A stretch of 64,000 bases of DNA from Loxodes magnus (taxonomy: Eukaryota > Ciliophora > Karyorelictea > Loxodida > Loxodidae), in assembly GCA_946699065.1 (NCBI GenBank), contig CAMPDV010001957.1, positions 1 through 64,000 on the forward strand. Direction: 5' to 3'. Both the position numbers and the translations under genes were made by a program. The notes under the pieces were generated by a model. It had not been told where the DNA came from, searched no databases, and saw nothing but the letters and a program-made list of their open reading frames with translations. The first letter of the stretch is position 1, and each line of letters opens with the position of its first letter. This document shows positions 60 to 64,000 of this stretch, in pieces.

Positions 60-820
60 TTTATGACTAAACTATATTAATAAATTGTTTACAATAAATT
101 AAAGCTATTTAGTAATAATATTTCAATTTAATGAAAGAGTTGTTGTACGAAACTGTTTATTTAAATTTTAAATAAAAAACAATTTTTTGACATCTATAAC
201 TGCATGAATTGCTTCAATTATATACATTAGTAAATGTTTTTAATGCTTTTAATATAATCTCGAAATCATCAATTTTAAATTACTCTTGTTATAGTCTCAT
301 CTTTTATTTCTCTATTTTTGCCTTTTCCATTTCTAATAATTCTAATCTTCTTGATAAAGTTTCTTGTGAAATATTTTTATTTATAAATCTAAATATCCCA
401 AATAAGACTTTGGAAGGGAGTTTATAAGTCCTTAATCATATAATATAAGGTGTCTTAAGTCATAATACTTAATCTTTTACGATAGTCAATCTCTTGTATT
501 ATAATAGTATATATATTTAAAAATGTGCTCAAATGTATCATACTCTCCCCACATAAAGTAGGGATTATCAATAGGATAATGACGATCTTAAAGATCTTTT
601 CTAAAATTATAAGATTGGGTTCTAAGTTTATATATACTGATAATTTCTTATCTAAATTATTTGTTCAACTTATGTAAGTAATTATTAGAAATTGGTTAAG
701 ATACGAAACTGCTTAATATATATTTTAGCTTTTTTCATTCTCTTAAACTTTTGAGTAGCTATATTATAGAAATATTATTGTATTTTGTCTCTTATATGTT
801 TAGTAAAATTTTTTTAATTG
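60..820 (-). pseudogene. LINE-B ORF2 C-terminal fragment
   Basis: Read on the minus strand, the segment around 547-585 gives HYPIDNPYFMWGEYDTFEHI. It aligns with HYPIENP-C-x-C-GE in the intact L1 element, so the zinc cysteines are lost here (C to F and W). The copy at 30534-30545 keeps C-I-C-G. The 3' end near 100-200 resembles the L1 3' end (gacatctataa against gacatcttta). This is a decayed non-LTR element C-terminus with no complete frame. Confidence 0.6.
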
Positions 821-1116
821 AAAGTTTAAAAAAACAAAACAAAAAAGAAACTTTTACTTCTAAATGGAGATGCTAAAGAAATATTTTCACATACTAAGAA
901 AATTAAAAACACTAAAAAATAAATTAAATGAACTTTAATTAAGAAATCAAAAATAAATCCATTGATTAATGGAAGAATTTATTTTTAACAAAAATTTTAA
1001 TCTAACTAAATAATATAATTTTCAGTAATTAAAAAATAGATAAAATATAAGATAGTATTTAGGAAATTAAAGATTATCAACTCTCATATTTATAAGGATT
1101 TTATCTTTTTACCATA

Positions 1117-1691
1117 CAAGAAATACAAGAAATTATAAAAGAAATTACGAATGGAAAAGCAGCTGTTTCAGCTTGCATAAAAGGTGAACTTCTGAAATAT
1201 GGTGGATAATATTTGTTAATAATTCTTCACTCTTTTCTGAATAATATGTTAAAATTTGGAATAATCCTTAGGAATTAAATACATTGTCGGTAATTCCAAT
1301 ATTTAAAAAAGGAAATAAAGATGACTGGAAAAACTGACTACCTATTACTCTTATTAATATTATTATAAAACTATATGATAAAGCTTTAACAAAAAGACTA
1401 TACAATCTGATTTATTAGAGAAATTTGATTCACCCTTCATAAATGGGATTTATAAAAATCAGATAAACAAATTAATAAATTTAATAATATAACAAATAAT
1501 TGATAACTATCGGAAACGTGCTAAGATAAGACTAAATTGATAGCAACACTAATAGATGTTGGAAAAATGTTTGACTCAATAAAAAGAAGACTTTTATTAG
1601 ATCAATTAAAGAGAGTTAAATTACCATTTGGGCTAATAAAAGCCTTAGAGTGGTTTTACAAAAACCTAAATTCTTCATTTAAAATAGATGG
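1117..1691 (+). pseudogene. LINE-B reverse transcriptase fragment, inverted
   Basis: Plus-strand reading in the ciliate code gives recognisable non-LTR RT blocks. These are NGKAAV..KGELLKYGG and LHSFLNNML near 1150-1260, then after a frameshift DDWKN-(TGA)-LPI at 1318-1345, then motif A as LIDVGKMFDSIKRR at 1543-1590 followed by ALEWFYKNLNSSF. L1 has TGG where this copy has TGA at 1335-1337 (NWRPI box), a Trp-codon exchange. The fragment stops at 1691, before motifs B and C, so it is inactive. Confidence 0.75.
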
Positions 1692-3395
1692 AGATAAGTT
1701 TGCAGAAAAGATTCTAAATATTTTTGACGATATATTGCATCTTATAACCTATTTATTTTATATTTCCTCAAATTCTTGCTCATCTTCAATTAATCTCACA
1801 TAAAATTAAGTTTTTTTTATAAATAAATTTGCAGAAAAAATGTTATTTTTAAGCTATAATATCATCTTATCACTGTTTATCTTATAAAAGAATTGTTTTA
1901 AGAATTAAGTTTTTATCTTTAAATAATCTAGCAATTTTCAGTTGATATCATACTTTATGAATAAATATAATTACAATCTTTAAAACATCAATCAAATAGA
2001 TAAATATAAATAATGACTATTTAATTAGAAAATGAATATGAAAATATTTTAATTTAATTTCTTGATAAGATCTTTTAAATTTAAATAAGTGCTTAATCAA
2101 ATCCTATTTATTAAACCACTTTAAATGTTTTTATGTTTATGAATATTTAGCATCTTAAATTAAAAAATACTATATTGTATATTAAACCAAACATTTATTA
2201 AAGCAATCCTTAAATTATCAATTATCATTTAGTTGTCTAATCATTTAGAATCAAACAAAAATACCTCATTTTTAAGGTCATTTATGAAATTGTGTATTAT
2301 TCGCTTTATCATCTTAGAAAAAGCTTTGCTTTTTATTATGCTATATATGTTTCTTTTTATATTGTACGAAATATTTCCCATATAGATATAATTATAATAG
2401 TTATTAAATTACACTTTGTATATTATTTTAATTAATACAAAAAATTAAAGCTTTTAACCTTTTTTGATATAATGAAAACTATATTGATTTCTTAATTATT
2501 TACACTTTCATTTTGGTAATTCCTATTATTTAATATTAGAATATCATTTTATTCTTATTTTAGATGCAAATATAAGATAATTTACAAGAAACTTAAGATT
2601 TTTATCATTTTCCATATATTCAAATTATTTATATACTTTACTACCAAATCTTTCTTAATCATAAATAGTCAATCCATTTTTTAAAAAACCTTTCAACTTT
2701 AATCAAATAGCTTCATTAGAAATTACAACATTAATAAATAAAATCTATTTTCTATATACATAGTAGATATATTCAACTTCCTAATCATCAGAAACCTAAA
2801 CCTATTCCTTTTAATATTACCAAATTAGAACTAATTTTTAAGAGAAAAAATACTTAATATAGCTATTTTTTCTTAAAAACTTATTTTTCTCTTCTAAATT
2901 AACATCTTTTCGAAAACTAAAAACAGATAGTTAGTCGTAGTAAGCTCTTTTCTTTTACTCATCTTTTTAAATTTTTAATGTTTTTCTAATTATTATAATA
3001 AAGCAGAATATTTTTAAGCTTGATTAATAAATTTTTGTTTCTATATTTTATATAGTTAGGTTAGATATATTATTTAGATCCTTGTTTAATTACTTTTTTT
3101 AGATTCTTTGTAAATTGGCCTAAAATTTATTATTACAGATGTATTGTACCTCATTTTTTCTATTTGATTGATCATATTTTTATAAAGAGATTTTTTAGTT
3201 CTTTTTGATTAGTTATTTTTAAAATTCACAATATCTATTAAAAAGTTAGTTTTAAGCCCTCTTATTGAAAAATTTTTTACTGATTTTGTTTCTTCCTAAA
3301 ATTGTCATTTATTTTGTTATCTTTACTTCTTAAAAGTCATTTAAAAAACTTTTCAAATCTTTTAAAATTCTATCCCTTTAAGAAAAAGATTTATC

Positions 3396-4613: not shown

Positions 4614-4676
4614 ATAATTATAATAAATAATTAATAATAATTAATAATAATTAATAATTAATAATTAATATCAATC
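4614..4676. repeat. TAATAAT-type microsatellite
   Basis: Runs of taataat/aattaat repeat here in the 3' flank of WD-1. The lengths and interruptions differ at the matching places in U2 (35290-35360) and U3 (53570-53640), as expected for replication slippage. Confidence 0.7.
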
Positions 4677-5136
4677 ATAAAAAATAAATAAAATACTTAA
4701 TTACATTTTTTTTAATTATAATCAAGATTATAAACTAACATTAAACTTATAAATAATATTTTAACTACTCCACAAAAAAATGATAATTTATACTCAACTT
4801 GAAATTTTTACAAAATCTAAAAATTAATCAATAAAAATTTTATAGTATAAAATTAAACTTAAACTTATTTTACGTCTTCATTTAACAAAATTATTCTTTA
4901 ATATTTTTTAAGCATAAACACTTTAAATAACATACCTCACTAATTTCTATAACCTATATTACTCAACCTTTTTTTAAACCAATAATATTTAAGAATATAA
5001 CAAATCTTAAATAAATATATAAAGCAAATACTTCATATAACTACAAACATAGTTATCTTTAGGCATTCATTTAAATTCATTATCAATATCTTATATCTTT
5101 AATAGCAAAATTTAATTAAGTCAAATAGCAAGTTAC

Positions 5137-6220
5137 TCAACTCGAAACCCTCCACTTTCTTATCGTCTCGTCAAGTCCTCCCGATACCAACCATCTATTA
5201 TCAACACTCAATGCTATAGAAAGTATTTCATATTAGTGCCCTTATAAAGTCTATATACACTCACCCGTATCAAAGTTCCATATCTTGATTGTTTTATCCC
5301 ATGAACCAGAAAATATAACACTTGAATCAACACTTAACTGAATACCTGATACAGAACTTGAGTGACCTTGAAGAATTCGAATACACTAACCAGAAGAGAA
5401 GTCCCATATCTTAATAGTACTGTCATAAGAACCTGATATGATATACCTATTATCCTTAGACACTATCACCGATAAAACAGAACCTGAATGCCCAGTAAGA
5501 GTTCGCACAAGCTGACCAGTCTAGAAATCCCAGATCTTTATGGTTTTGTCATAAGATCCCGATATAATATATCTAGAGTCATAGGAGAGTACTACCGATC
5601 TAACTACATTAGTATGTCCCGTTAAAGTTCTTTGGAGAGCACCATTGTGGAAATTTCAGATCTTTATGAAGTAGTCAGAAGATCCTGATATAATATACTT
5701 AGATTCATAGGAGATTATTACCGAGTAAACTGTAAAAGTATGTCCTGATAAATTTCTTATGAGAGCACCAGTCTATAAATTTCAGATCTTTATAGTTTTA
5801 TCAGCAGATCCTGATACTATACAATTAGAGTCTGGGGAGATTACTACCGATGAAACATGAAAAGTATGTCCTGTTATAGTTCTTATGAGGGAACCTGTCA
5901 GGAAATTCCAGATCTTTATCAAATTTTCAGGATATCCTGCACCTGATACAATTCAATTCAAGTCACTTGATATGGCTACCGATAACACAGCTGAAGTGTC
6001 AGTAAGGATTTAGTCTAAAAAATATTAAAGAAATACCTTTACTTTAGTCATAACTGATCTTGTTTATTAACTTTTAGTAGCATAAATTAGGCAGAATTTC
6101 ATACTTAAAATGAAGTAGAGATATTTTCCCTAAAATGTGGCTTCTCGCTCTTAAGAGTTTTCTTAAAAAAATACTTTTAGTAAATTGCTTTTCTTTTTTC
6201 TCCGTTTCTTTTTTCACCAT
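5137..6220 (-). CDS. WD-1: seven-bladed WD40 propeller protein
   Basis: Likely a beta-propeller protein-binding scaffold; the ligand is unknown. The two exons (6220-6037 and 6014-5137) total 1062 nt, giving 353 residues before a TGA stop. After a basic N-terminal stretch of about 60 residues, seven WD40 blades follow, each of the form SVxxSxDSxYIxSGSxDxTIKIWxFxTG..RTLTGH. Blade 7 ends RKWRVSS and TGA follows at once. Three internal TGA codons fall at Trp sites: KIW at 5656-5658 and 5782-5784, and LNW at 5953-5955. TAG and TAA occupy Gln sites (FQTG, SGQC, CIQTLQG). Against WD-3, exon 1 shows AGA/AGG, AGC/AGT, ATT/ATC and TTA/CTA changes, all synonymous, so the gene was under constraint. The start is the first in-frame ATG; the other copies have an extra Met a few codons in. 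No NACHT or other enzymatic domain is attached. Confidence 0.9.
6015..6036 (-). other. 22-nt intron of WD-1
   Basis: On the minus strand the intron reads GTATTTCTTTAATATTTTTTAG. It starts with GTA and ends with TAG. Removing it joins the N-terminal exon (..SYDQSK) to the first blade (DQ.LT) in one frame. The flanking exon bases show synonymous change between copies (CAA/TAA in the Gln codon just upstream). All four WD genes keep the same 22 nt at the same place. Confidence 0.75.
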
Positions 6221-6545
6221 TTTAATTTTATAACTTAATTCATAAATATTTAATTAAAATAATTCAATAAATTTTACTTACTTAATTTCAATTTAATTAA
6301 ACAATTAAATTATTTATTAAGCATATTTATAAATATCTCATTTCTTAAAAATTGATTTTTCTATTTTTGTCTTAAAACAAGACAAGATATAAAACTAATA
6401 GTGTGCAAGCTTTTACATTTTTAATTATTTTATATCTTTTTACTTTTAAATGAAAGGATAAGTTATTATATCAAAAGTTTATAACGAAGAATTATATCCT
6501 TATTATAATAACTTTAATATGCATCCATTAATTACAACTTGTTCG
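6221..6545 (-). promoter_or_regulatory. Shared 5' flank of the WD40 genes (promoter candidate)
   Basis: About 300 bp upstream of the start codon is kept in all four WD genes, including WD-4, where homology to the WD block begins at 17766, 301 bp before its ATG. The block is AT-rich with a run reading cttattataataactttaat near 6499. Because this is the only upstream sequence WD-4 shares with the others, the promoter probably lies in it. No specific promoter element is recognised. Confidence 0.35.
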
Positions 6546-9500
6546 TGCTTTAAATCAAAGACTCTTAATAAGAAAACCTTATTTAGTTGTAGAGCTTTTA
6601 AATGATAAATAAAATATTATAATTCTTTAAAAAATTATTGCTATTAATTATTATTTTTCACTTACATTTAATCAAAAAAAATTATTTCTTTAAGCTTTTT
6701 ACTAATAAAAAAAATGAAACAAAATAAGTTTCTTATTAACTAGTTTGAATAAATATTAAAAAACATAAAATTATTTAAAATAAAGTATTTTTAGAATTTG
6801 TAAGATAAAATCTTTTATTTTTCCACTTTCTTACTACTATTTGATTAAAATTTTTTATTTATAAAGTTCTCTCTTAAAATAATAAACTAATATAATTTAT
6901 TTTAATGTTGATTCTAAGCAAGTTATATAAATGTAATAAATATAAGTAGTAGAAAGTAAATATTTAAAACTAACTAGAAATGGTGTATCACTAATTTTAT
7001 CTTACAATTATTAAATAGTAATATTTAATTTTATTATTAAAATAAGCTTTAATATGTTTAATTATGTCTATTAAATACTTAATATTTTATCCTTTTAGCT
7101 TTATTAGTTATTAATTTCTCTTTAATTTAGATATTAGATTAGTTATAATAAATAGATTTAGATAAGTTTCTGTTTTTATAGCAAAGTAATATTAATTATT
7201 TGTGTTATTTTAGTAATGATAATTTCTAATTAATAATAGCTAAATGATTCTAGATAATTTAAAGATAAAAACTTAAATCTATTATTCTATACAAATCTAT
7301 ATTATATAGTTAGCACTATTAATAGTCTATTTATTAGAATTAGTAGTTTGATATTTAGAAAATGATAAGCTTTTAAGTAAGCATATTTATAATATCTTGT
7401 ATTATTATTTTCTGAATGAAAGAACTTAGCATAATATGTTTGTTTGTAAGATAATATAAGTATTAGATTAGGTAATATAACTAATCTAAGAGATTATGAT
7501 TTACTGTTAATACATTTGATTAGTGTACTATTATTGTATAGGTTTGTGTTGGTAATAAAGAATTGTACATGTTTTGCTTTATACATTTATTAATCTGATT
7601 AGAAAAGATTGAAATCTGATGATATAGATAGTTAATGATTTGAAAGTTAGGCATTAAAATAAGTTTGATTTTTAGATGATTTATAATTTTGCTAAATTTA
7701 AATTATATTTATATATTCCTTTTTATTAACTATCTTTTGTAATTAACTTTTGTTTGGAAAGCTGATAGGTACATTTTGTAAAAAATGTAGTCTTAATTTA
7801 TCTAAGTTTATTTTAGTGAGTATAAGAATATATTTAAAGTATTAATGATACTAGTTCTATAAAACATTTAGGTAATTATATAAAATAAATAGTAAAGAGA
7901 AAACATTATTCTTTTATATAATTAAACCAAGAAAAGCTAGCTCTTCAATAGAGTCAATTATTCATATATCTAAAGTCCTCTATTTATCTTAAAATCAAGT
8001 GCTTAATATATTATAGCCTCCTTATTTAGTAATATTAATTCATAAAAACTTAAAAGAAAATTCCTTTTTACTTGTACTTGCAAATATTCTAAGTCCTTTA
8101 ACTATTATAGGTTTAATTAGAGACTAATAAGAAATTTTGTTATCCTCTAGATAAAATATTTAATAAAATTGTGATTTCTTATTAAGAATAATATTTTAAA
8201 TGAAAATAAGGAAAATTAATATTTTTCTATTTGTAAAAATTTAAAATAATTTATATAAAATCTCTTAATATTTTATAAAAAACAAAGTAAATGCAAAATA
8301 ATTAATTAAATATAATTTAAAAAATATTAACAAAATATATAATTCTAAATGATATTATAAATTAATATTTTCAATATTCATCTTTAGATCAAACATATAA
8401 TCAATTATGTAATCTAGATTTTAACCAAATCTACTCAAATATCAAACTTAAATTATAACCAAAACTTAAGAAATTTCATTTTTCAAAAATTAAAATAAAA
8501 TTTACTAATTATTTAATTGACACTATCAACTTAAATTATTTAAAAGAATTACTAAAAGAGAAAAAAGTATAAATTAATTAATTAAAAAAATTAAAAAATA
8601 TTATAATTTAAAACTTTATATTTAACAATATTTAAGATAAATATTAAAAATACTAATTTTATAAATCTACCATTTATTTACTTTTTAAATAAACTAATTC
8701 AACAAAAAAATTATTATTCTTAGAAATTTTACATTTAAAAATATAAAAAATTAAAAATCTTAAAAATCTTAAAAAATTCTCTAACTCTCAGATTTTTATA
8801 ATCAGCCTATTTAGTTTATTTTTACTATTTTTCATCGATTATGGATATATATATAAGTACTAATTATTTTACTAATCTAAAATTTTAACTTCTTCTTAAA
8901 TGGAAACTATTCAATATTTGAATAAATAAGTAAAAAAATTATTTAATTTTTTATTTTCTAATTCTTTTTCTAAACTTAATATGAAATCCCGCTAAATGTT
9001 TTTAAAAATAATTTAATTCATATCAATATTAAGATTCTTAAATATTAAGTAAAGTAGCAAACTAAATTAAAATTTTGAATTAAAAACATATTTATAATTT
9101 TATTGATTCAAATATGCCTAAAATATGAAATTAGAAGCATTTTTTAGGAGAGTTAAAGATTGTCTAAGAAGAATAATTAAATTAAATTAAAGTTTTTGAT
9201 AAATTTGTATAAAATATAAATGATAGAAATTTGAATATTATTCTTGCTTATTTAAAATTTAATATTATTTAAATATTTTAAATATTTCTGGTAATTAAAT
9301 TTTATAAAAACTTACTCATTTATAGTTATTAATTATTAGTGAAAATAATATTATTATAATACTATTTATAATTTATTTACGTATATTTATTATTTTTATA
9401 GATTAATCTTCATAGAAAAATCATTAGTAATAATTAGTATTTAATAATAATTGTACTAATTATAATTAAAATCCAAGTTTTCAAATTCTAGCTTTAACAG

Positions 9501-12154: not shown

Positions 12155-15100
12155 TCATCTCCCGCTTTCATCTTCATCTTATACTTTAGCTTAATCATCT
12201 TAGTTATCAATTTTTTCCTTCTATTCTCCCACTTATTCTTTTAGCTCTTCTTATTATTTCTTTTCTTCCTCATTCTCTTTACTATTTTCTTGATTTTTTA
12301 CTTCCTATTCCTTAGATTCAGGACTTTCCAATCATTCTTCTTCCATTTCGAATAGTTCCAATCTCCTTTTGAGCAGCATCCTGTGGAAAAATTTTATTTG
12401 TAAATCTATGTATTCTATCTTGTTTTTTTTGGAATTAGTTGATATAATTTTAATCATAGGTTATTAATCTTCCTATATCACCTTATTCAATCTTTGTTTT
12501 TAGCCATTCTTTTATATCTATGTAACAATTGCAATCCATAATATGTTGAAACTTGTCCAATTCTCCACAGATGCAATGAGGATTCTCGATAGGATAATGT
12601 CTATCTTGAAGATCTTTCCGAAAGTTGTAGCTTTAAGTTCTGAGTTTGTATATACTGATTATTTCTTTTCTATATTATTTATTTAGTTTCGGATATGTAA
12701 TTTCTGGGAATTATCGTTAGTTACAAAATTATTCTATAAAAATCTTTGCAGTTGGCGTACATTTAAGTTTTTACTAAGTTATTTTATAGAATTTTTGTTG
12801 AATCTAGTTCTTTACATATTTCGTAAGGGTAGTTAAGCTACTATTATATTCCTAATTATTAAAGTCAATTTCGTAGTATTCAGATAATCTTGTTAATTAG
12901 TCTCTATATTAATATCCTTCCTATCAATTATTCATAAAGAGATTCCCTAATGTTGATTATGGAAGGTTAATACTTTCTTATCGTATTTTATAAAAAAATC
13001 TAAAAACCTCAAAGCCATAATATCTTTAAATGGCATTCAGTTAAGATCTTTATAACAGGACTCATTAAAAGTGTTTTCAGGTGCTTAGAAGGCTTTCCTT
13101 GCCATCAATCTCATACTTTTGCCAATTTTATTTAGTGTTCCAGTTGCTCCATTTTAGACTGCTCAAGGTATTAATTCTCCTCCATATTCAACTTTAGAGA
13201 GCGTGAACATCCGGCACAAAGTCTTAAAATGTCAAGGTGTCACATTTTTATATCTTGATAATGTATATACTACTTTCTTCATACTAGACAGATAATTAGA
13301 TGAAACCGATTTGCAGTGATTAATTAGATCCTTTTTTTTATGAAGAATTACTCCTAAATATGTTACTTATTACTTTTAAACAATTGGATTGTCTTTTATT
13401 TTAAAGTTTAACTTAATTTCTTTTTGATTCTTTTTTAAGAATTAAAGAGCTTCGCATTTTGAAGTATTAATATTCAATTAAGTTAATTCGAATACTTTTT
13501 ATGTTTCATTTATTAAAATCTGCATGGACTTTTCAGATTTGGATAGGAGAATTAAATCATCTACCCATCCTCTACATGTGAAGCTTCTGCCAATAGTATT
13601 ACATTTGAATCCTATTATGTTACTTTTACTTACTAAATATCTGATTACAATATCATAGTACAGCAAAGTAAGCACTGGACCATGTGAGCTACCTTATATA
13701 ACTCAATTATTGTATTTTATCTTCCTAGATAAGGTTCCATCTATAAGAAAGGAGGAATTTATGTTTTTATAGAAAGATTCAAGGGCATTTATAAGTCCTA
13801 AAGGAAGCTTGACTCTCCTGAGTTAATCGAAAAGCAATCTTCTTTCTATAGTATCAAACATTTTCTCTACATCTATTAGTGTGGCTAGGAGTTTTGTCTT
13901 CCCTTTTGCTTATTTGCGATAGGATTCTATTATTTACTATATTGTCCAAATTTGCATAGTAGTTTATTTCCTTTTCATGAATTAAGTTTCTTTTATATAT
14001 TTAGTCATATAACCTTTTAGTTAAAGCTTTATCATATATTTTTAGTATAGAGTTCATCAAAGAAATAGGTCTCCAATTTTTCCAGTCATCTTTGCTTCCT
14101 TTTTTAAATATAGGAATAATGATTGACGTATTAAGTTCTTCAGGTATTCTACCTAACCTCAGCATATTATTCAAGAAAGAATGAAGAATCAAAGTAAGAT
14201 AATAACCTCCATACTTCAATAATTCTCCCTTTATGCCATCTGGACTAGCTGCTTTTCCATTAGGGATTTATTGAATAATTTCCTAAATTTCTTAAATCGT
14301 AAAGAGTTGGAATTCTTGTAAATAGGAAGGTATTTAATCTTAAATTTCTTTAATATTTCAATAAACTAGATTAAAACTTTTGTTACTATTGTCAAGCTAC
14401 TATTAAGAAAGATTTTAATTTTTATTAAAAACAAAATTCTCTCATGAATCAACGAATTGGTTTTTAAGCTCTTAATTAAAGTCCATTTTGTTTCTTATTT
14501 TTTGGTTCAGAATCTTTTTCGCTTGCTAAAACATAATTTTTGGTTCTTCATTAAGATTTAGAAATTTCTTCTTTGCTTTATCTTTTAACCATTTTCATAG
14601 ATGATATTTATATTTATTTCAAAGTTTATTAGCTGATTTCTGAAGATTAAGGACTCTTTAATTAATTCTTCCAAAATAAATTTGCACTTCTTTATACTCT
14701 TAGTTAGCTCTTTTCGCATCTATATACTTTCTTGCAAGATCTTGAGGAAGTTTGCTGTATTTAGGATCAGGAATAAATGATCCTAGTACTGAATCTGCGT
14801 TTTCTTGAATATTTCTGCTAATGTACATGTACTATTCCTCTAAATTATTTCTATCTATTTGAAGGTAATCATTACAAGTTTGTATAAATGATTGCTAATA
14901 TCTTTATCTATCAATTGGATCTTACAAACGATTAATTTTATATTTTCTCTAAATTATTTTTTCATCATCATAATATTTTGTATTAAACAAAAAGTTAACT
15001 GTAATTGGAATGTGATCAGTGTTTAAGCAGCCATTGTGAACCTAAAAATTTACAAATTAATTATTATTTAAATGACTACTAATTAAAATATAGTCATTAC

Positions 15101-16246
15101 AGTACAATTTTCCCGTTCCTTTGTGTATGCATGTATTACTAATCGTATTATTAACTATTTGAAGATCATTTTATTGCAAGAATTCTTAAAATCTAGATGT
15201 GTTGTCATAATCGTTTTAAGTATTATTTCCGTAATTTTATAATAGAGCATTGAAATCTCCTATCAATATATGAGGATTATTTGGAAATTATGCAATATAT
15301 GTATTAATATAATCATAAGCTTAATCTTTAATAAGACTACTTTTATTATTGTCAGGCATATAACAAGATGTGATTAATATATTTTCCATTTTGACTGAAA
15401 CAAATCGATTTTAGGTTTATATATTTACTCTAGATTCAGTAATATGATTTCATCTCTAATAATCAAGCTTACACCTCCTCCTTTATCTGCATTTCTAAAG
15501 TATATCCTATATCCTTTTATTAGTATAGGAGGAAAATCTTACTTTTGTCATGTTTCATTAATTGAGAAGATGTCTATGTCATTACTTTTGATAAATTCTT
15601 CAATCATTAACTGTTTTCCTGCTATTCCATTAATGTTAACGTGTCCAATCTTGATTCGAGTTCTATATTAATATTAATATTAATTATTATCTTTATTACT
15701 TTCTTTTGATCCAGCTGGAAGTCCATTTTCGTAAATACAAATATTTTGATTCTCTTGTTAATCATAATCAACATTTACAAATTTTTTACCATATTCCGGA
15801 TGCTGATGAAAGAATTAGATAATTATAAAAATTACTTATTTATTATATTTTTATAACAGCTTTTGATCCACAAATATTTTGGTTTTTTTAATACTATCAA
15901 TAGTTCCAAATGTTAATTCTTAATTTATTGTCACATACCTGCCTTAAATATTACTCATTTCATACTGTGTTTTTCTTCAAGAACCCTATAATATAAATTC
16001 CTTGAGTAAAGGCGATTTAAAATTTAAAAATTGCATTATTTTTTCACTTTCTTTTTGATCTCTATATTTAATACTACGTTTAGCTACTGGAATTTAAATA
16101 TAATATTTTTCCTATTTTCTTTTAAGAGGGTTTGATTTTTTAGCAACAGAACATTTTTAGTTTTCAATTTTATTGAAATCTGTCTAGTTCTATTAATCTT
16201 TTGATTAATTTTTAGCTTTAAGGCTAAATAATCCATTCATTAACAT
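12155..16246 (-). CDS. L1 ORF2: APE endonuclease and reverse transcriptase
   Basis: The ORF2 polyprotein nicks the target DNA and copies the element RNA. From the N-terminus there is a basic linker, then an APE endonuclease opening IGHVNINGIAGKQ and FSINE-T-W (TGA as Trp at 15548-15550), with LIGDFNA at 15246-15260 and NTDHIPI. The RT follows: KGELLKYGGYYL, PIFKKGSKDDWKNWRPISLM, motif A LIDVEKMFD, motif B QGSSHGPVL, motif C as W-V-D-D-L (13556-13564, in place of the usual Y-A-D-D) and YLGVIL. A C-x-C-G..H..C zinc motif at 12563-12574 and an E/K/Q-rich acidic tail close the protein, with TGA at 12155-12157. One base is missing near 15440 relative to L2, which breaks the endonuclease frame, and motif B has TGA where L2 has GGA (Gly). 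This copy is therefore probably inactive. Confidence 0.88.
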
Positions 16247-18066: not shown

Positions 18067-19138
18067 ATGGAGAAAAAAGAAAAGCAATTTACTAAAATTA
18101 TTTTTTTAAGAAAACTCTTAAGAGCGAGAAGCCACATTTTAGGGAAAGTATCTCTACTTCATTTTAAGTATGAAATTCTGCCTAACTTATGCTACTAAAA
18201 GTTAATAAACAAGATCAGTTATGACCAAAGTAAAGGTATTTCTTTAATATTTTTTAGATTAAGTCCTTACTGGTCACACTTCAGTTGTTTGCTCGGTATC
18301 CATATCAAGTGACCTGAATTGAATTGTATCAGGTTCAGCATATCCTGAATATTCGATAAAGATCTGGAACTTCCAGACAGGTGCTCTCTTAAGAACTATA
18401 ACAGGACATACTTCTGAAGTTTTATAGGTAGTAATCTCCCCTGACTCTAGCTATATCGTATCAGCATCTGGTGATAGAACGATAAAGATATGAAACTTAT
18501 AGACTGGTGCTCTCATCAGAATTATAACGGGGTATATTTCTCCTATTACTTCGGTAGTAATCTCCCTTGACTCTAGGTATATAGTATCGGCATCTAGAGA
18601 TACAACCATAAAGATCTGAAATTTCCTCAATGGTGATCTCCAAAGAACTATAATGGGACATACTGATATAGTTAGATCGGTAGTAATCTCCTTTGACTCT
18701 AGATATATTATATCGGGATCTTGGGATAACACTATAAAGATTTGGGATTTCTAGACTGGCCAGCTTGTGCGAACTCTTACTGGGCATTCAGGTTCTGTTT
18801 TATCGGTGATAGTGTCTAAGGATAATAGATATATAATATCTGGTTCAGATGACAGTACTATTAAGATATGGGATTTCTCTTCTGGTTAGTGTATTCGTAC
18901 TCTCCAAGGTCACGTAGATGATGTACGTAGTATCCAGTTAAGTGTTGATTCAAGTGTAATATTTTCTGGTTCATGGGATAAAACAATCAAGATCTGGAAC
19001 TTTGATAGAGGTGAGTGTATATAGACTTTGTAAGGGGATACATCGTAGATAAATTCTATAGCATTGAGTGTTGATAATAGATGGTTGGTATCGGGAGGAT
19101 TTGACAATACTGTGAGAAAGTGGAGGATTTCGAGTTGA
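18067..19138 (+). CDS. WD-4: seven-bladed WD40 propeller, plus strand
   Basis: The exons 18067-18235 and 18258-19138 total 1050 nt (349 residues), ending RKWRISS-TGA. It is the most diverged paralogue, yet every indel against WD-1 is a multiple of three (for example +3 at the start of blade 1: TGHT against TDT). TGA stands for Trp in LNW and in the KIW of two blades. Blade entries differ from the other copies (TSEVLQ, TDIVRS, VDDVRS, DTSQINS), as do the residues either side of the Asp in SxSxDxT. Homology to the other WD genes spans only 17766-19191, a transcription-unit-sized cassette that keeps the intron, so it is not a retrocopy. It abuts the start of gene N's inverted copy. Confidence 0.88.
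18236..18257 (+). other. 22-nt intron of WD-4
   Basis: The sequence GTATTTCTTTAATATTTTTTAG is identical to that in the other WD genes. Splicing joins the frame ..SYDQSK to DQVLTGHT. The Gln codon before it is CAA here and TAA in WD-1, a synonymous exchange that supports both the exon frame and TAA=Gln. Confidence 0.75.
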
Positions 19139-30079: not shown

Positions 30080-32367
30080 AATAAATGCTATAAATTAAAG
30101 CTATTTAGTAATAATATTTCACTTTAATAAAAGAGTTATTGTATGAAACTGTTTATTTCAATTTTAAATTAAAACAGTTTTTTGACATCTATAACTGCAT
30201 GAATTGCTTCAATTATAGACATTAGTAAATGTTTTTAATGCTCTTTAATTATAATCTTGATCTCATCAATTTTAAATTACTCTTGTTATAGTCTCTCTTT
30301 TATATTTTCCTTTTTTACTTTTTCCATTTCTAATCATTCTAATCTTCTTGATATAAGTTTCTTATACTTTTATTTAGAAATCTAAATATCCCAAATAAGA
30401 CTTTGGAAACTATTTTATAAGTATTTAATCATATATTATAAAGCGTCTTAAGTCATAATTCTCAATCTTTTACGATAGTCAATCTCTTATATTAGAATAG
30501 TATATATATTTAAAAATGTGCTGTACCATACTCTCCACATATACAGTAGGGATTATCAATAGGATAATGAAGATCTTAAAAATCTTTTCGGGGATTAAAA
30601 GATTGGGTTCTAAGTTTATATATACTAATAATTTTTTGTCTAAATTCTTTGTTCAACTTAATGTAAGTGTTTATTGGAAATTTGGTTAAGATTACTGAAC
30701 TTTTCAGTATATATTTTAGCTTTTTTCATTCTCCTAAACTTTTGAGTAGCTGTATTATAAAAATATTATTGTATTTTGTTCTCTTTAGTAAACATTTTTT
30801 AATTTATACTAATCTTGGAATTCTACAGGTAGAGGTCTGATAATTGCTAAACTTTATCATAGCATTGAAATCAAATAGTTGGTAATGAAAAGAGAGCCTA
30901 TTGTCGATGTTGAAAAATCAATACTTTCTTATTTAATTTTATAATAGAATTTAAAAAACTTTATTGCCATAATGTGTTTGAAAGATAACCAGTTTAAATC
31001 TATGAAACATAACTTATTAATGTTGCTGCTTAAATTGCTTGAAATCATTCTCATACTCAATTCTATTCAAAACTCAAGTTATTCCTCTCTGAATACACCA
31101 TGGTACTAGTTCTCTCCATATTCTGCTTTAGGTAAAAAGTTTGCATAAAGTTTTAAAATGCCAAACATTCTTATATCTCATAAGTTAAAAAACAGCTTTT
31201 TCATTGCAACTAAATACTTGATCACGACTTCTCTACAATGAGAATTAAAATTCTTCTTCTAATGTAGCATTACATCTAAATATGTTACTAGTTCCTTTTA
31301 AATAATTGGTTAATTATCTAATCATAAATTTTATTATTTCTAATGTTTCTTTAAAATTTAGATGCATTCAGATTTGATAAATTTGATCTTTAATTGAGTT
31401 TATGTAAAAATGCTTACCTTTAGCACGTTTCCGATAGTTATCAATTATTTGTTATATTATTCAAATTTATTAAGTTGTTTATCTGATTTTTATAAATCCC
31501 ATTTATGAAGGGTGAATCAAATTTCTCTAATAAATCAGATTGTATAGTCTTTTTGTTAAAGCTTTATCATATAGTTTTATAATAATATTAATAAGAGAAA
31601 CAGGTAGTCAGTTTTTCTAGTCATCTTTATTTCCTTTTTTAAGTATTGGAATTACTGCCCATTTATTTACCTCCTAAGGAATTCTTCCAAATCTTAACAA
31701 ATTATTCAGAAAAGAGTGAAGAATTATTATCAAATATTATCCACCATATTTCAGAAATTCACCTTTTATTCTGTCTGAATCAGCTGATTTTCCATTCGTA
31801 ATTTCTTGATAATTTGTTGTATGGTAGATAAAATCCTAATAAATAGTTGATAATCTTTAATTTCTTAAATACTATCTTATATTTTATCTATTTTTTAATT
31901 ACTAAGATTTATTTATTATTTAGTTAGATTAGAATGCTTTTTAAAAATAAATTCTCCCATGAATCAATGGATTTATTTTTGATTTCTTAATTAAAGTTCA
32001 TTTAATTTATTAGGCTTTTTAATTTTCTTAGTATGTGAAAATATTTCTTTAGAATCTCCATTTAGAAGTAAAAGTTTCTTTTTTGTTTTTTCAAAATTTC
32101 ACAAATTAGAATTGAAGTCATTCAGAATGTCGTTTTTTCATGAATATTAGTTACTTATTAGTTTATTCTTCCAGATATAATGTATGCTTCTTATATACTG
32201 AGTTAGCTCTTTTAGGCCTAAATATTTCTTAGTAAGATCTCGAGATATTTGTTATAACTTGAATCTGGAATAAAGGATCCTAATGTTTAATCAGCATTGT
32301 ATTAGATGTTATTTTTGATAAATTTATATTAAACTTCAAGATTATCTTAATCTATCTAAAAGAATTC
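30080..32367 (-). mobile_element. LINE-B copy 2: 5'-truncated, not inverted
   Basis: Minus-strand LINE collinear with L1 from the endonuclease end to the 3' end. It keeps C-I-C-G at 30534-30545 after HYPIDNPY, the RT blocks opposite copy 1 (KYGG, LHSF near 31735) and the linker. Motif frames are broken by several indels, and the NWRPI box reads N-TGA-LPV. Its 5' truncation point abuts U2 at the same base of U at which the twin-primed LINE-B copies abut U1 and U3. Confidence 0.75.
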
Positions 32368-35830: not shown

Positions 35831-36914
35831 TCAACTCGAAATCCTCCATTTTCTTATCGTCTTGTCATATCCTCCCGATACCAACCATCTATTATCAACA
35901 CTCAATGCTATAGAAAGTATTTCATATTAGTGCCCTTATAAAGTCTAGATACACTCACCCTCATCAAAGTTCCAAATCTTGATTGTTTTATCATAAGAAC
36001 CAGAAAATATAACACTTGAATCAACACTTAACTGAATACTACGTACAGCATCTGTATGACTTTAAAGAGTACGAATACACTAACCAGAAGAGAAGTCCCA
36101 TATCTTAATAGTACTGTCATAAGAACCTGATATGATATACCTATTATCCTTAGACACTATCACCGATAAAACAGAACCTGAATGCCCAGTAAGAGTTCGC
36201 ACAAGCTGACCAGTCTAGAAATCCCAGATCTTTATGGTTTTGTCATAAGATCCCGATATAATATATCTAGAGTCATAGGAGAGTACTATCGATCTAACTC
36301 AATCAGTATGTCCCGACAAAGTTCTTTGGAGATCACCATTGTGGAAATTTCAGATCTTTATGGTTTTGTCATAAGATCCTGATACTATATAGCTAGAGTC
36401 ATAGGAGATTACTACCGAGGTAATAGGAGAAATATGCCCCGTTAAAGTTCTTATGAGAGAACCAGTTTATGAATTTCAGATCTTTATAGTATTGTCTTCG
36501 GATCCTGATACAATATATCTAGAGTCTGAGGAGATTACTATCGATCAAATAGTAGAAGTATGTCCTGTTATAGTTCTTAGGAGAGCACCTGTCTGGAAAT
36601 TCCAAATCTTTATCGAATTTTCAGGATATTCTGAACCTGATACAATTTAATTCAGGTCACTTGATATGGCTACCGATAACACAGCTGAAGTGTCAGTAAG
36701 GATTTAGTCTAAAAAATATTAAAGAAATACCTTTACTTTAGTCATAACTGACCTTGTTTATTAACTTTTAGTAGCATAAATTAGGCAGAATTTCATACTT
36801 AAAATGAAGTAGAGATATTTTCCCTAAAATGTGGCTTCTCGCTCTTAAGAGTTTTCTTAAAAAAATACTTTTAGTAAATTGCTTTTCTTTTTTCTCCATT
36901 TAATTTTTCTCCAT
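35831..36914 (-). CDS. WD-2: seven-bladed WD40 propeller protein
   Basis: Exon lengths equal those of WD-1 (184 and 878 nt; 353 residues, TGA stop at 35831-35833). Its TGA codons are the clearest case for Trp. HTD-TGA-VRS (36299-36301) is the textbook GHTDWVRS blade start, and HTSTI-TGA-SIVIS matches the common VWSV form. LNW of the other copies is LNQ (TAA) here. Blade entries differ from WD-1 in blades 2, 3, 4 and 6 (TSTIWS, ISPITS, TDWVRS, TDAVRS) and agree in 5 and 7. Two in-frame start codons lie at 36914 and 36899. Confidence 0.9.
36709..36730 (-). other. 22-nt intron of WD-2
   Basis: Same position and same bases as in the other WD genes (GTA..TAG on the minus strand). Removal preserves the reading frame from the N-terminal exon into blade 1. 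Confidence 0.75.
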
Positions 36915-48984: not shown

Positions 48985-50630
48985 TGACTAAACTATATTA
49001 ATAAATAGTTTACAATAAATTAAAGCTATTTAGTAATAATATTTCAATTTAATGAAAGATTTGTTGTACGAAACTGTTTATTTAAATTTTAAATAAAAAC
49101 AATTTTTTGACATCTATAACTGCATGAATTGCTTCCTTCAATTATAGACATTAGTAAATGTTTTTAATGCTTTTAATATAATCTTGAAATCATCAATTTT
49201 AAATTACTCTTGTTATAGTCTCATCTTTTATTTCTCCCTTTTTGCTTTTTCCATTTCTAATAATTCTAATCTTCTTGATAAAAGTTTCTTATATTTTTAT
49301 TTATAAATCTAAATATCCCAAATAAGACTTTGGAAGGGAGTTTATAAGTCCTTAATCATATAATATAAGGTGTCTTAAGTCATAATACTTAATCTTTTAC
49401 GATAGTCAATCTCTTGTATTATAATAGTATATATATTTAAAAATGTGCTCAAATGTATCATACTCTCCCCACATAAAGTAGGGATTATCAATAGGATAAT
49501 GACGATCTTAAAAATTTTTTCGGGGATTAAAAGATTGGGTTCTAAGTTTATATATACTGATAATTTTTTGTCTAAATTATTTGCTCAACTTAGTGTAAGT
49601 AATTACTGGAAATTGGTTAAGATACGAAACTGCTTAATATATTTTAGCTTTTTTCATTCTCTTAAACTTTTGAGTAGCTATATTATAGAAATATTATTGT
49701 ATTTTGTCTCTTATATATTTAGTAAAATTTTTTTAATTGAAAGTTTAAAAAAACAAAACAAAAAAGAAACTTTTACTTCTAAATGGAGATGCTAAAGAAA
49801 TATTTTCACATACTAAGAAAATTAAAAACTCTAAAAAATAAATTAAATGAACTTTAATTAATAAATCAAAAATAAATCCATTGATTAATGGAAGAATTTA
49901 TTTTTAACAAAAATTTTAATCTAACTAAATAATATAATTTTCAGTAATTAAAAAATAGATAAAATATAAGATAGTATTTAGGAAATTAAAGATTATCAAC
50001 TCTCATATTTATAAGGATTTTATCTTTTTACCATACAAGAAATACAAGAAATTATAAAAGAAATTACGAATGGAAAAGCAGCTGTTTCAGCTTGCATAAA
50101 AGGTGAACTTCTGAAATATGGTGGATAATATTTGTTAATAATTCTTCACTCTTTTCTGAATAATATGTTAAAATTTGGAATAATCCTTAGGAATTAAATA
50201 CATTGTCGGTAATTCCAATATTTAAAAAAGGAAATAAAGATTACTGGAAAAACTGACTACCTATTACTCTTATTAATATTATTATAAAACTATATGATAA
50301 AGCTTTAACAAAAAGACTATACAATCTGATTTATTAGAGAAATTTGATTCACCCTTCATAAATGGGATTTATAAAAATCAGATAAACAAATTAATAAATT
50401 TAATAATATAACAAATAATTGATAACTATCGGAAACGTGCTAAGATAAGACTAAATTGATAGCAACACTGATAGATGTTGGAAAAATGTTTGACTCAATA
50501 AAAAGAAGACTTTTATTAGATCAATTAAAGAGAGTTAAATTACCATTTGGGCTAATAAAAGCCTTAGAGTGGTTTTACAAAAACCTAAATTCTTCATTTA
50601 AAACAGATGGAGATAAGTTTGCAGAAAAGA
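48985..50630 (-). mobile_element. LINE-B copy 3: twin-primed, duplicate of copy 1
   Basis: Nearly identical to 60-1691: 3' part on the minus strand up to about 49725, then the RT part on the plus strand to 50630. Plus-strand motif A (ATLIDVGKMFDSIKRR) lies at 50459-50510. Copied together with U as one segmental duplication (1-10525 against 48921-59426). Confidence 0.7.
50030..50630 (+). pseudogene. LINE-B reverse transcriptase fragment, copy 3
   Basis: Same blocks as at 1117-1691. DDW is DYW here (gat to att change near 50240), and the TGA in the NWRPI box is kept. Cut before the catalytic aspartate pair, so inactive. Confidence 0.7.
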
Positions 50631-54050: not shown

Positions 54051-55122
54051 TCAACTCGAAATCCTCCACTTTCTTATCGTGCTGTCACCCGCTCCCGATA
54101 CCAACCATCTATTATCAACACTCAATGCTATAGAATTTATTGTTTATTCATGCCCTTGTAAAGTCTAGATACACTCACCCGTATCAAAGTTCCATATCTT
54201 GATTAGATGATCATTTGAACCAGAAAATATAACACTTGAATCATCACTTAACTGAATACTACGTACACTATCTACGTGACCTTGAAGAGTACGAATACAC
54301 TAACCAGAAGAGAAGTCCCATATCCTAATAGTACAGTCATAAGAACCTGATATGATATGCCTATTATCCTTAGATTAAACATAATCTGAATGCCCAGTAA
54401 GAGTTCGTTCAAGTTGACCTGTCTAGAAATCCCAAATCTTTATAGTTGCATCCCAAGATCCCGATATAATATATCTAGAGTCATAGGAGAGTACTACCGT
54501 TCTAACTGTATAAGTATGTCCCGACAAAGTTCTTATGAGAGCACCATTGTGGAAATTTCAGATCTTTATGGTTTTGTCATAAGATCCTGATACTATATAG
54601 CTAGAGTCAGTGGAGATTACTACCGAGTAAACTGTAGAAGTATGTCCTGATAAATTTCTTATGAGAGCACCAGTCTATAAATTCCAGATCTTTATGGTTG
54701 TATCACCAGATGCTGATACGATATAGCTAGAATCTGAGGAGATTACTACCGATGAAACATATGAAGTATGTCCTGCTAAAGTTCTTATGAGAGCACCTGT
54801 CTGGAAATTCCAGATCTTTATCGAACTTTCAGGATATCCTGAACCTGATACAATTCAATTCAGGTCACTTGATATGGCTACCGATAAAACAGATGAAGTG
54901 TCAGTAAGGACTTAGTCTAAAAAATATTAAAGAAATACCTTTACTTTAGTCATAACTGATCTTGTTTATTAGCTTTTAGTAGCATAAGTTAGTCAGAATT
55001 TCATACTTAAAATGAAGTAGAGATATTTTCCCTAGGATGTGACTTCTCGCCCTTAAGAGTTTTCTTAAAAAAATAATTTTAGTAAATTGCTTTTCTTTTT
55101 TCTCCATTGAATTTTTCTCCAT
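54051..55122 (-). CDS. WD-3: WD40 propeller protein with a shortened fifth blade
   Basis: The exons (184 and 866 nt) give 349 residues and TGA at 54051-54053. Relative to WD-1, blade 5 lacks exactly 12 nt, so SxSVLSVIVSKD becomes SDYVQSKD. The first strand of that blade is lost but the frame is intact. At the blade 3 KIW it has TGG where WD-1, WD-2 and WD-4 have TGA. Other TGA-for-Trp sites (LNW, blade 4 KIW) are shared. Blade-top residues are again different (TSYVSS, TYTVRT, VDSVRS, EQTINS). In-frame start codons lie at 55122 and 55107. Confidence 0.88.
54917..54938 (-). other. 22-nt intron of WD-3
   Basis: Identical position and bases to the other WD introns. Exon 1 is 184 nt, as in WD-1 and WD-2, so the phase is the same. 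Confidence 0.75.
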
Positions 55123-59426: not shown

Positions 59427-62400
59427 TACTTAAACTTAAACTAAACTAAAATAGTCTGGTGACATCTTTAATTGTTAGAATTACTTCCTTCAATTAAAGA
59501 TGCTTTAGAATTATTAATAAGTTTTTCATCTCCCGCTTTCATCTTCATCTTATACTTCAGCTTAATCATCTTATTTATCAATTTTTTCCTTCTATTTTTC
59601 CACTTATTCTTTTAGCTCTTCTTATTATTCCTTTTCTTCCTTGTTCTCTTCACTATTTTCTTGATTTTTTACTTCCTATTCCTTAGATTCAGAACTTTCC
59701 AATCATTCTTCTTCCATTACGAATAATTCCAATCTCCTTTTGAGCAGCATCCTGTGGAAAATTTTTATTTGTAAATCTATATATTCTATCTTGTTTTTTG
59801 GGAATTAGTTGATATAATTTTAATCATAGGTTATTAATCTTCCTATATCACCTTATTCAATCTTTGTTTTTAGCCATTCTCTTATATCTATGTAACAATT
59901 GCAATCCATAATATGTTGGAACTTGTCCAATTCTCCACAGAAACAATGAGGATTCTCGATAGGATAATGTCTGTCTTGAAGATCTTTCCGAAAGTTGTAG
60001 CCTTAAGTTCTGAGTTTGTATATACTGATTATTTCTTTTCTATATTATTTATTTAGTTTCGGATAGGTAATTTCTGGGAATTATCGTTAGTTACAAAATT
60101 ATTCTATAAAAATCTTTGCAGTTGGCGTACATTTAAGTCTTTAATAAGTTATTTTATAGAATTTTTGTTGAATCTAGTTCTTTACATATTTCGTAAAGGT
60201 AGTTAAGCTACTATTATGTTCCTAATTATTAAAGTCAATTTCATAGTACTCAGATAATCTTGTTAATTAGTCTCTATATTAATATCCTTCCTATCAATTA
60301 TTCATAAAGAGAGTCCCTAATGTTGATTATGGAAGTTTAATACTTTCTTATCGTATTTTATAAAAAAATCTAAAAAACCTCAAAGCCATAATATCTTTAA
60401 ATGGCATTCAGTTAAGATCTATATAACAGGACTCATTAAAAGTGTTTTCAGGTGCTTAGAAGGCTTTCCTTGCTATTAATCTCATACTTTTATCAATTTT
60501 ATTTAGTGTTTTAGTTGCTCCATTTTAGACTGCTCAAGGTATTAATTCTCCTCCATATTCAACTTTAGGGAGCGTGAACATCCGGCACAAAGTCTTAAAA
60601 TGTCAAGGTGTCACATTTTTATATCTTGATAATGTATATACTACTTTCTTCATACCAGACAGATAATTAGATGAAACCGATTTGCAGTGATTAATTAGAT
60701 CCTTTTTTTGATGAAGAATTACTCCTAAATATGTTACTTATTACTTTTAAATAATTGGATTGTCTTTTATTTTAAAATTTAACTTAATTTCTTTTTGATT
60801 CTTTTTTAAGAATTAAATAGCTTCGCATTTTGAAGTATTAATATTCAATTAAGTTCATTCGAATACTTTTTATGTTTCATTTATTAAAGTCTGCATGGAT
60901 TTTCAGATTTGGATAGGAGAATTAAATCATCTGTCTACCCTCTACATGCGAAGCTTCTGCCAACATTATTACATTTGAATCCTATTATGTTACTTTTACT
61001 TTCTAAATATCTGATTACAATATCATAATACAGCAAAGCAAGCACTGGACCATGTGAGCTACCTTACATAACTCCATTATTGTATTTTATCTTCCTAGAT
61101 AAGGTTCCATCTATAAGAAAGGAGGAATTTATGTTTTTATAGAAAGATTCAAGGGCATTTATAAGTCCTAAAGGAAGCTTGACTCTCCTGAGTTAAACGA
61201 AAATCAATCTTCTTTCTATAGTATCAAACATTTTCTCTACATCTATTAGTGTGGCAAGGAGTTTTGTCTTCCCTTTTGCTTATTTGCAATAGGATTCTAT
61301 TATTTACTATATTGTCCAAATTTGCATAGTAGTTTATTTCCTTTTCATGAATCCCATCTAGCTTTCATGAATTAAGTTTCTTTTATATATTTAATCATAT
61401 AACCTTTTAGTTAAAGCTTTATCATATATTTTTAGTATAGAGTTCATCAAAGAAATAGGTCTCCAATTTTTCCAGTCATCTTTGCTTCCTTTTTTAAATA
61501 TAGGAATAATGATTGACGTATTAAGTTCTTCAGGTATTCTACCTAACCTCAGCATATTATTCAAGAAAGAATGAAGAATCAAAGTAAGATAATAACCTCC
61601 ATACTTCAATAATTCTCCCTTTATGCCATCTGGACCAGCTGCTTTTCCATTAGGGATTTATTGGATAATTTCCTAAATTTCTTAAATCGTAAAGAGTTGG
61701 AATTCTTGTAAATAGGAAGGTATTTACTCTTAAATTTCTTTAATATTTCAATAAACTAGATTAAAATTTTTGTTACTATTGTCAAGCTACTATTAAGTAA
61801 GATTTTAATGTTTATTAAAAACAAAATTCTCTCATGAATCAACAAATTGGTTTTTAAGCTCTTAATTAAAGTTCATTTTGTTTCTTATTTTCGGGTTCAG
61901 AATCTTTTTCGCTTGTTAAAACATAATTTTTGGTTCTTCATTAAGATTTAGAAATTTCTTCTTTGCTTTATCTTTTAACCATTTTCATAGATGATATTTA
62001 TATTTATTTCAAAGTTTATTAGCTGATTTCTGAAGATTAAGGACTCTTTAATTAATTCTTCCAAAATAAATTTGCACTTCTTTATAATCTTAGTTAGCTC
62101 TTTTCGCATCTATATACTTTCTTGCAAGATCTTGAGGAAGTTTGTTGTATTTAGGATCAGGAATAAATGATCCTAGTACTAAATCTGCGTTTGATCGAAT
62201 ATTTCTGCTAATGTACATGTATTATTCCTCTAAATTATTTCTATCTATTTGAAAGTAATCATTACAAGTTTTTATAAATGATTGTTAATATCTTTATCTA
62301 TCAATTGGATCTTACAAACGATTAATTTTATATGTTCTCTAAATTATTTTTTCATCATCATAATATTTTGTATTAAACAAAAAGTTAACTGTAATTGGAA

Positions 62401-64000
62401 TGTGATCAGTTTTTAAGCAGTCATTGTGAACCTAAAAATTTACAAATTAATTATTATTTAAATGACTACTAATTAAAATATAGTCATTACAGTACAATTT
62501 TCCCGTTCCTTTGTGTATGCATGTATTACTAATCGTATTATTAACTATTTGAAGATCATTTATTGCAAGAATTCTTAAAATCTAGATTTGTTGTCATAAT
62601 CGTTTTAAGTATTATTTCCGTAATTTTATAATAGAGCATTGAAATCTCCTATCAATATATGAGGATTATTTGGAAATTATGCAATATATGTATTAATATA
62701 ATCATAAGCTTAATCTTTAATAAGACTACTTTTATTATTGTCAGGCATATACCAAGATTTGATTAATATATTTTCCATTTTGACTGAAACAAATCGATTT
62801 TAGGTTTCTATATTTACTCTAGATTCAGTACTATTGATTTCATCTCTAATAATCAAGCTTACACCTCCTTCTTTATCTGCATTTCTAAAGTATGTCCTAT
62901 ATCCTTTTATTAGTATAGGAGGAAAATCTTACTTTGTCATGTTTCATTAATTGAGAAGATGTCTATGTCATTACTTTTGATAAATTCTTCAATCATTAAC
63001 TGTTTTCCTGCTATTCCATTAATGTTAACGTGTCCAATCTTGATTCGAGTTCTATATTAATATTAATATTAATTATTATCTTTATTACTTTCTTTTGATC
63101 CAGCTGGAAGTCCATTTTCGTAAATACAAATATTTTTATTCCCTTGTTAATTATAATCAACATTTACAAATTTTTTACCATATTCCGGATGCTGATGAAA
63201 GAATTAGATAATTATAAAAATTACTTATTTATTATATTTTTATAACAGCTTTTGATCCACAAATATTTTGGTTTTTTTAATACTATCAATAGTTCCAAAG
63301 GTTAATTCTTAATTTATTGTCACATACCTGCCTTAAATATTACTCATTTCATACTGTGTTTTTCTTCAAGAACCCTATAATATAAATTCCTTGAGTAAAG
63401 GCGATTTAAAATTTAAAAATTGCCTTATTTTTTCACTTTCTTTTTGATCTCTATATTTAATACTACGTTTAGCTACTGGAATTTAAATATAATATTTTTC
63501 CTATTTTCTTTTAAGAGGGTTTGATTTTTTAGCAACAGAACATTTTTAGTTTTCAATTTTATTGAAATCTGTCTAGTTCTATTAATCTTTTGATTAATTT
63601 TTAGCTTTAAGGCTAAATAATCCATTCATTAACATTTTATTAATTTCTTATTATTTTCTCAGATTTTCCTCTTACTTTTAATTGTTACATATGAAATCTA
63701 TATTTAACTAATGATAGGATTACTAGAGTTTTATATAATTCTTTTCTTACAAATTCACTTGGCAAAATTGGTCTAATTGATCAACTTTTATTGTGTTAGA
63801 TGATATATCTAAACACTGGATTTTTACTTAAATTTGCTTATCCTATTCTATAGCATCTGTTTAAGTTTAATTAATTTTGGTTTAATTTGTTTCTGTTTAT
63901 GTTTACATTTCAAAATATATTTTTTAATATTTTTATTGTTGCTTAGTATAAAAGCTTGTTATGTTTTAAATTTCATTTTATTTTTATGTTAATAATCCTT
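59427..64000 (-). mobile_element. L2: LINE, second copy of the L1 family, cut by the window end
   Basis: Nearly identical to L1 from the 3' tail (agtttaagtttaag) to the window edge, which lies upstream of the ORF2 start. It is inserted in U3 at a different site from L1 in U1, so these are independent insertions of one recently active family. A short direct duplication (atgaattaag/catgaattaag) near 61347-61380 is specific to this copy. Confidence 0.9.
59526..63635 (-). CDS. L2 ORF2: APE endonuclease and reverse transcriptase
   Basis: Same domain order as L1 ORF2: IGHVNINGIAGKQ, GDFNA, KGELLKYGGYYL, NWRPISLM, motif A, NNGVMQGSSHGPVL, motif C, a C-F-C-G zinc motif, acidic tail and TGA at 59526-59528. 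Motif B has GGA (Gly) where L1 has TGA. Motif C reads Q-T-D-D (60926-60934) where L1 reads W-V-D-D, so the residues before the catalytic pair vary. The endonuclease frame is intact at the site where L1 lost a base (DEINSTESR), but one base is missing near 62935 next to NETW. Probably just disabled. Confidence 0.85.

Follow-up and report, generated by a model that had tools for sequence, protein, structure and literature searches.

Matched tryptophan and terminal TGA codons in a duplicated WD40 gene family from probable karyorelict DNA

The window, by which we mean the whole 64-kb stretch of DNA analysed here, is AT-rich, with 17–26% GC per 4-kb step, and under the standard code it holds a single open frame of at least 120 residues. 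Once TAA and TAG are read as glutamine and TGA as tryptophan, the minus strand from 6051 to 5140 spells out seven WD40 blades, and four WD40 copies (WD5, WD18, WD36 and WD54; Table 1) are open only with this reading. WD5 lies on the strand and at the position given in a preliminary description of the same DNA, which had treated it as one continuous reading frame. This is correct for the propeller; the segment at 6043–6220 is in another frame and is probably joined to it through a GT..AG intron of 22 or 28 bases. The window is pieced together from segmental duplications of up to approximately 10 kb, mostly 87–97% identical, and the WD40 gene is therefore present several times.

Table 1 Features of the 64-kb window
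Feature	Position	Strand	Remarks
WD5 gene	5137-6220	-	Propeller and N-terminal exon
WD5 exon 1 (N-terminal)	6043..6220	-	From ATG 6220; frame differs from that of the propeller, frame join presumed
WD5 probable intron, GTAAAGGTATTTC..TTTTTTAG	6015..6042	-	28 nt, or 22 nt from second GT
WD5 seven-bladed propeller exon	5137..6014	-	PF00400 E=4.3e-73; model pLDDT 96.9, 28 strands
WD5 internal TGA (Trp)	5953-5955, 5782-5784, 5656-5658	-	Read from the sequence; the last two in KIW
WD5 terminal TGA (stop)	5137..5139	-	60-nt GC 0.47 before, 0.20 after; in 4/4 copies
WD18 copy	18067..19138	+	Exon 1 18067-18229, intron 18230-18257, stop TGA 19136-19138
WD18 internal TGA (first bases)	18320, 18491, 18617	+	Read from the sequence
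WD36 copy	35831..36914	-	Stop TGA 35831-35833; intron 36709-36736
WD36 internal TGA	36545-36547, 36476-36478, 36350-36352, 36299-36301	-	Read from the sequence; the last in GHTDW
WD54 copy	54051..55122	-	Stop TGA 54051-54053; intron 54917-54944
WD54 internal TGA	54855-54857, 54558-54560	-	Read from the sequence
Duplicate pairs	1-10535 vs 48922-59427; 1692-12063 vs 32369-42749; 12059-16611 vs 59430-64000		
Inverted duplicate pair	19192-25107 vs 39081-44845		
LINE family A copy	13302..15769	-	Endonuclease and RT in different frames (decayed); TAA on motif B Gln
LINE family A, second copy	60650..63060	-	In a block with 97% identity to 12059-16611
LINE family B RT fragment	780..1700	+	Similarity to family A only, without own Pfam match
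LINE family B RT fragment	31300..32140	-	Without own Pfam match
LINE family B RT fragment	49700..50620	+	

The GT..AG stretch between exon 1 and the propeller has the same sequence in all four copies. Both possible lengths, 28 nt and 22 nt (from the second GT), equal 1 modulo 3, so that removal of either would put exon 1 in frame with the propeller. Loxodes introns have a mean length of 19.3 nt and 93% of them are no longer than 25 nt (PMC11441545), which favours the 22-nt length. At the 5′ end, a 14-nt deletion in WD18 took away the upstream ATG that WD5 uses; WD18 has a second in-frame ATG, at a codon that is ACG in WD5. Blade 5 of WD54 carries an in-frame deletion of 12 nt.

The four propellers together contain 1,210 codons, among them 12 internal TGA and 29 TGG, counted from the ATG at 6051 and its counterparts, so that about 10 codons per copy fall within the presumed intron. 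The 28 conserved blade tryptophan positions (KIW) are occupied by 21 TGG and 7 TGA codons and by nothing else; TGA is thus found at 7/28 of these sites and at 5/1,182 codons elsewhere (Fisher p=1.2e-9, with copies that are not independent). The two TGAs that the preliminary description had placed in KIW motifs of WD5, and the one in GHTDW of WD36, are present on checking. TGG and TGA also exchange between WD copies: the blade-2 KIW codon is TGG in WD54 and TGA in the other three. The four paralogues are not independent, and the internal TGAs fall into only five distinct columns, two of them at the invariant tryptophan. At both KI[TGA] columns, 97–99% of the aligned homolog residues are tryptophan. 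The remaining columns are neutral, as tryptophan is absent or in the minority among homologs there (0 of 75–96 at DLN[TGA], 6% at STI[TGA] and 13% at HTD[TGA]).

The TGA positions were also scored against profiles. The blade profile reaches 1,369.1 bits with tryptophan, 1,331.9 with tyrosine and 1,298.5 with an unknown residue, and this 37-bit preference for tryptophan over tyrosine is partly circular because tryptophan was required for cutting the blades. The curated Pfam model PF00400, which is free of such cutting, places tryptophan at the top of the 14 residues tried on WD36 (262.1, with tyrosine at 258.5, a margin of 3.6 bits). Two longer Pfam propeller models rank other residues above tryptophan on the same copy: WDR3_2nd gives tyrosine 225.1 and tryptophan 203.4, and WDR3_1st gives arginine 240.2 and tryptophan 236.6.

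For TAA and TAG, the propeller profile scores glutamate (1,330.1), arginine (1,330.0) and glutamine (1,329.3) inseparably, and by itself still allows glutamate at TAR. The choice of glutamine is made from two other observations. The conserved glutamine of reverse transcriptase (RT) motif B is a TAA codon in LINE family A, as aligned with R2 proteins, and CAA and TAA replace each other between copies at two propeller codons and one codon of exon 1. Both observations disagree with TAR as glutamate, the assignment of the Blastocrithidia code (table 31), which shares TGA as tryptophan with the window. Matches to tRNAs and Rfam families were absent from the 64-kb window.

At the other end of the genes, TGA directly follows KWR(I/V)SS in all four copies, and the last codon of WD5 is indeed the TGA after blade seven that had been described. 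GC content over 60 nt drops at these terminal TGAs, from 0.40–0.48 before to 0.20–0.22 after, whereas the 12 internal TGAs show no step (0.28–0.42 before, 0.32–0.40 after). The WD5 propeller was modelled with AlphaFold from a 24-row alignment and the unspliced frame; the model has a mean pLDDT of 96.9, a pTM of 0.93 and 28 strands, the last of which stops two residues before the terminal TGA. Judged by the WD40 fold, these strands would form seven blades of four, and the first strand would complete blade seven; since the unspliced frame was modelled, that first strand (residues 9–16) is partly presumed intron. TGA, TAA and TAG are all missing from the last 20 codons before the stop (each 0/80 over the four copies, a tiny and non-independent sample), where both tryptophan codons are TGG in every copy (8/8).

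The preliminary description had also drawn support for a dual TGA from unrelated genes. The TGAs that it listed exist, and much of the support that they lend is weak. In the LINEs, the TGA of the endonuclease NETW motif (15550) and that of the RT motif given as NWRPI (1335, reading NWLPI) are real, but both lie in LINE frames broken by indels. The codon at 1335 in family B is TGG in family A; overall, the two families offer seven alignable TGA sites over 382 codons, of which three face TGG and four face other codons. The TGA at 13705 in family A is GGA in the sister copy and glycine in relatives, and is probably a lesion. As three of seven sites face TGG and this one faces glycine, the LINE TGAs are likely to be a mixture of sense codons and lesions, and constitute weak support for TGA as tryptophan. 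TGAs are also present in the two CCHC knuckles (26248 and 48402), but tryptophan is not diagnostic at that position. The swap in gene M (TGG at 10666, TGA at 22672) exists, but lies outside the GC-rich body at 10961–12040 and among indels that are not multiples of three.

Gene M, whose three copies (10961–12040 and 41641–42720 on the minus strand, 21281–22380 on the plus strand) stand out as GC-rich at 33%, went without a Pfam match in scans of its first and third copies and has no clearly constrained frame, for which reasons it was dropped as a second gene. Above the Pfam cut-off, only WD40 and LINE domains were found in the stretches scanned, which were 1–2102, 6100–13400, 16500–35700 and 44100–49000 in six frames and 5071–6093, 12100–17002 and 59430–64000 on the minus strand; much of the remaining window repeats scanned blocks, and two matches below the cut-off were set aside. 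Two LINE RT pieces had no match among public proteins, and viral contigs scanned for LINEs yielded none. Other routes to further genes were abandoned: self-training on codon usage overfitted to the WD40 genes, all-frame BLASTP returned composition noise, and scans for synonymous excess were too weak in duplicates 95–97% identical, with only the more diverged LINE pairs giving a clear signal. Of two further matches, L001 belongs among WD40 relatives and has frames in the standard code, and L002, with a frame that we take to read like a uracil-DNA glycosylase, looks like a chance match. Further GC-rich stretches at 19821–20340, 20601–21100, 43721–44980 and 48021–48560 may be genes. The C-terminal part of one family B element (240–820) is inverted beside its RT part (780–1700), an arrangement as in twin-primed LINE insertions.

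Variation among the WD40 copies is concentrated within each blade at four residues, two around a conserved valine and two around a conserved aspartate. At these positions 25/28 codons differ in amino acid, against 49/216 others (p=6e-12). In the fungal genes HET-D and HET-E, positive selection has been reported at codons 7, 9, 25 and 27 of the repeat, around conserved positions 8 and 26 (PMC1805685). The 18-residue spacing leads us to match the numbering, by which the variable positions here would correspond to those four codons. In blades 4–7, 15/16 codons at HET-E-type positions are variable and 21/123 elsewhere (p=1.5e-9), a test that is not fully independent, as the published positions (PMC1805685) were compared after the pattern had been seen. 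In blades 5–7, downstream of every internal TGA, the counts are 12/12 and 16/92. These figures count variable codons and are not likelihood estimates of selection.

Whether the copies are live or decayed is the key question, because decay of TGG to TGA would mimic the pattern at the tryptophan sites. Under the ordinary ciliate code (table 6), with TGA only a stop, the WD40 genes and LINEs would be pseudogenes, and a single transition from TGG would likewise land TGA on tryptophan sites. The LINE copies in this window are clearly decayed, with endonuclease and RT pieces in separate frames, and the average constraint on the propellers is weak, with pairwise dN/dS of 0.35–1.13; the argument that the WD40 genes are live thus rests on the pattern of sites. 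The four propellers differ by two indel events, of 3 and 12 nt, whereas the 5′ flank has five indels over 315 columns (1, 4, 1, 1 and 14 nt), none a triplet, and of 29 gap runs counted between pairs of copies over the 3′ flank, 22 are not multiples of three. TGA stands at KIW in three or four copies, yet the blades downstream are free of frameshifts and vary mainly at four positions. Exon 1 has pS 0.106 and pN 0.017 in its own frame (four copies, six pairs; pN/pS approximately 0.16), and the other two frames of the region give pS/pN of 0.078/0.030 and 0.000/0.046. Two TGAs of WD36 fall exactly on variable positions, where tryptophan also occurs in HET-E repeats (PMC2873952). DNA without protein function should not vary in this way, and the four copies do not look decayed; the indel and variable-site patterns disagree with a code in which TGA is only a stop, and of all the readings weighed here we consider wholesale decay the least probable.

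If TGA were instead always tryptophan, the WD40 proteins would run on to a TAA that stands seven codons beyond each terminal TGA. The copies do remain similar for about 60 nt beyond the TGA, and in the WD frame pN (0.053) is lower than pS (0.148) there, on few sites. Against this, GC falls exactly at the TGA, the propeller is predicted to be complete already, the last KIW lies no more than 10 residues from the end in 63/119 homologs, and most changes past the TGA, as read from the alignment of the copies, alter the amino acid. We regard such an extension as very improbable, and the similar sequence is perhaps 3′-UTR. The same TAA would suit a code of the Condylostoma or Amoebophrya type, with three dual codons and with TAA and TAG as stops elsewhere too, for which the window leaves room. 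However, TGA stands at 4/4 gene ends (all of one family), the inferred intron of 22 or 28 nt is longer than the 15–16 nt of heterotrichs, and the LINE domains and GC content match Loxodes, so that we give this kind of code little credence, if somewhat more than the other two. For the four WD40 genes, the reading proposed in the preliminary description, with TGA as tryptophan internally and as stop at the gene end, is supported as the best one, given the conserved tryptophan sites, the triplet-only indels of the propellers, protein-level selection downstream of the TGAs, a complete propeller and a GC step at the terminal TGA only.

This reading, which we consider very likely to hold, is that of the karyorelict nuclear code, NCBI table 27 (Loxodes magnus, Parduczia sp.), in which TAA and TAG are glutamine and TGA is both tryptophan inside genes and stop at their ends. 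In Loxodes spp., UGA is reported as stop with UAR as glutamine (PMC6935857), and for Loxodes with table 27 as the sole stop that is also tryptophan upstream (PMC11441545). GC content in Loxodes is 33.5% in coding sequence and 18.6% in 3′-UTRs, and its genome carries about 2,700 copies of RVT_1 and about 1,200 of Exo_endo_phos_2 (PMC11441545). The propellers here have 35.5–36.9% GC and the 60 bases beyond the stop 18–20%, and the window shares with Loxodes coding sequence about 15 GC points above post-stop sequence, LINEs with RVT_1 and Exo_endo_phos_2 domains, the lack of TGA and TAA just before the stop and, as inferred here, a short intron; among the features measured we see no difference from table 27. 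The match to the karyorelict code that had been suggested fits the code, GC, intron and LINE features published for Loxodes (PMC11441545), and the window is most likely nuclear DNA of a karyorelict, probably Loxodes or a close relative. Because table 27 is already published for Loxodes (PMC11441545), the code itself is known; what the window adds is a new locus that uses it.

Other known codes are less similar. Condylostoma magnum (table 28), a heterotrich, shares the context-dependent TGA and differs in having TAA and TAG stops, unseen here at four gene ends of one family. Amoebophrya sp. ex Karlodinium veneficum also has in-frame TAA, TAG and TGA, probably read as glutamine, glutamine and tryptophan, with the terminating codons left open in PMC12005148. 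For Condylostoma and Parduczia, closeness to the transcript end has been proposed to turn a codon into a stop (PMC4967479), and a dependence of termination on how near a codon is to the mRNA end and the poly(A) tail is stated for Loxodes (PMC11441545). The WD40 genes would be translated in the same manner, with termination at TGA presumably set by its closeness to the end of the mRNA and the poly(A) tail. A codon that serves as both amino acid and stop is known yet striking, and the window offers a clean natural example. Standard gene finding would miss these genes. With internal and terminal TGAs matched across four similar copies, they lend themselves to tests of the conditions under which TGA becomes a stop.

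Beyond the code, the WD40 genes look like fast-changing recognition proteins. They share with HET-D and HET-E (NWD) similar blades and variable pairs flanking the conserved valine and aspartate, and differ in that all four copies have seven blades. When the copies are compared, blades 2 and 3 have a mosaic appearance, which suggests that blades may have been exchanged. No Pfam family, whether NACHT, HET or another effector domain, was found beside WD18 (16502–18058 and 19139–21500 in the WD18 frame, and the other five frames of 16500–21500) or near WD5 (6100–8400, six frames). Among the papers listed by a literature search for such a system in ciliates, none is by its title about ciliates, and the word WD40 is absent from the main text of PMC11441545. 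It is conceivable, although less likely than not, that a karyorelict is duplicating a WD40 family and diversifying it at the four surface positions per blade that vary in fungal allorecognition receptors, some of them occupied by UGA-encoded tryptophan, as a candidate recognition system in a ciliate whose code has no dedicated stop codon. This hypervariable WD40 family deserves more follow-up than the code, and if it varies in the same way between isolates, self/non-self recognition in a ciliate would be opened to study.
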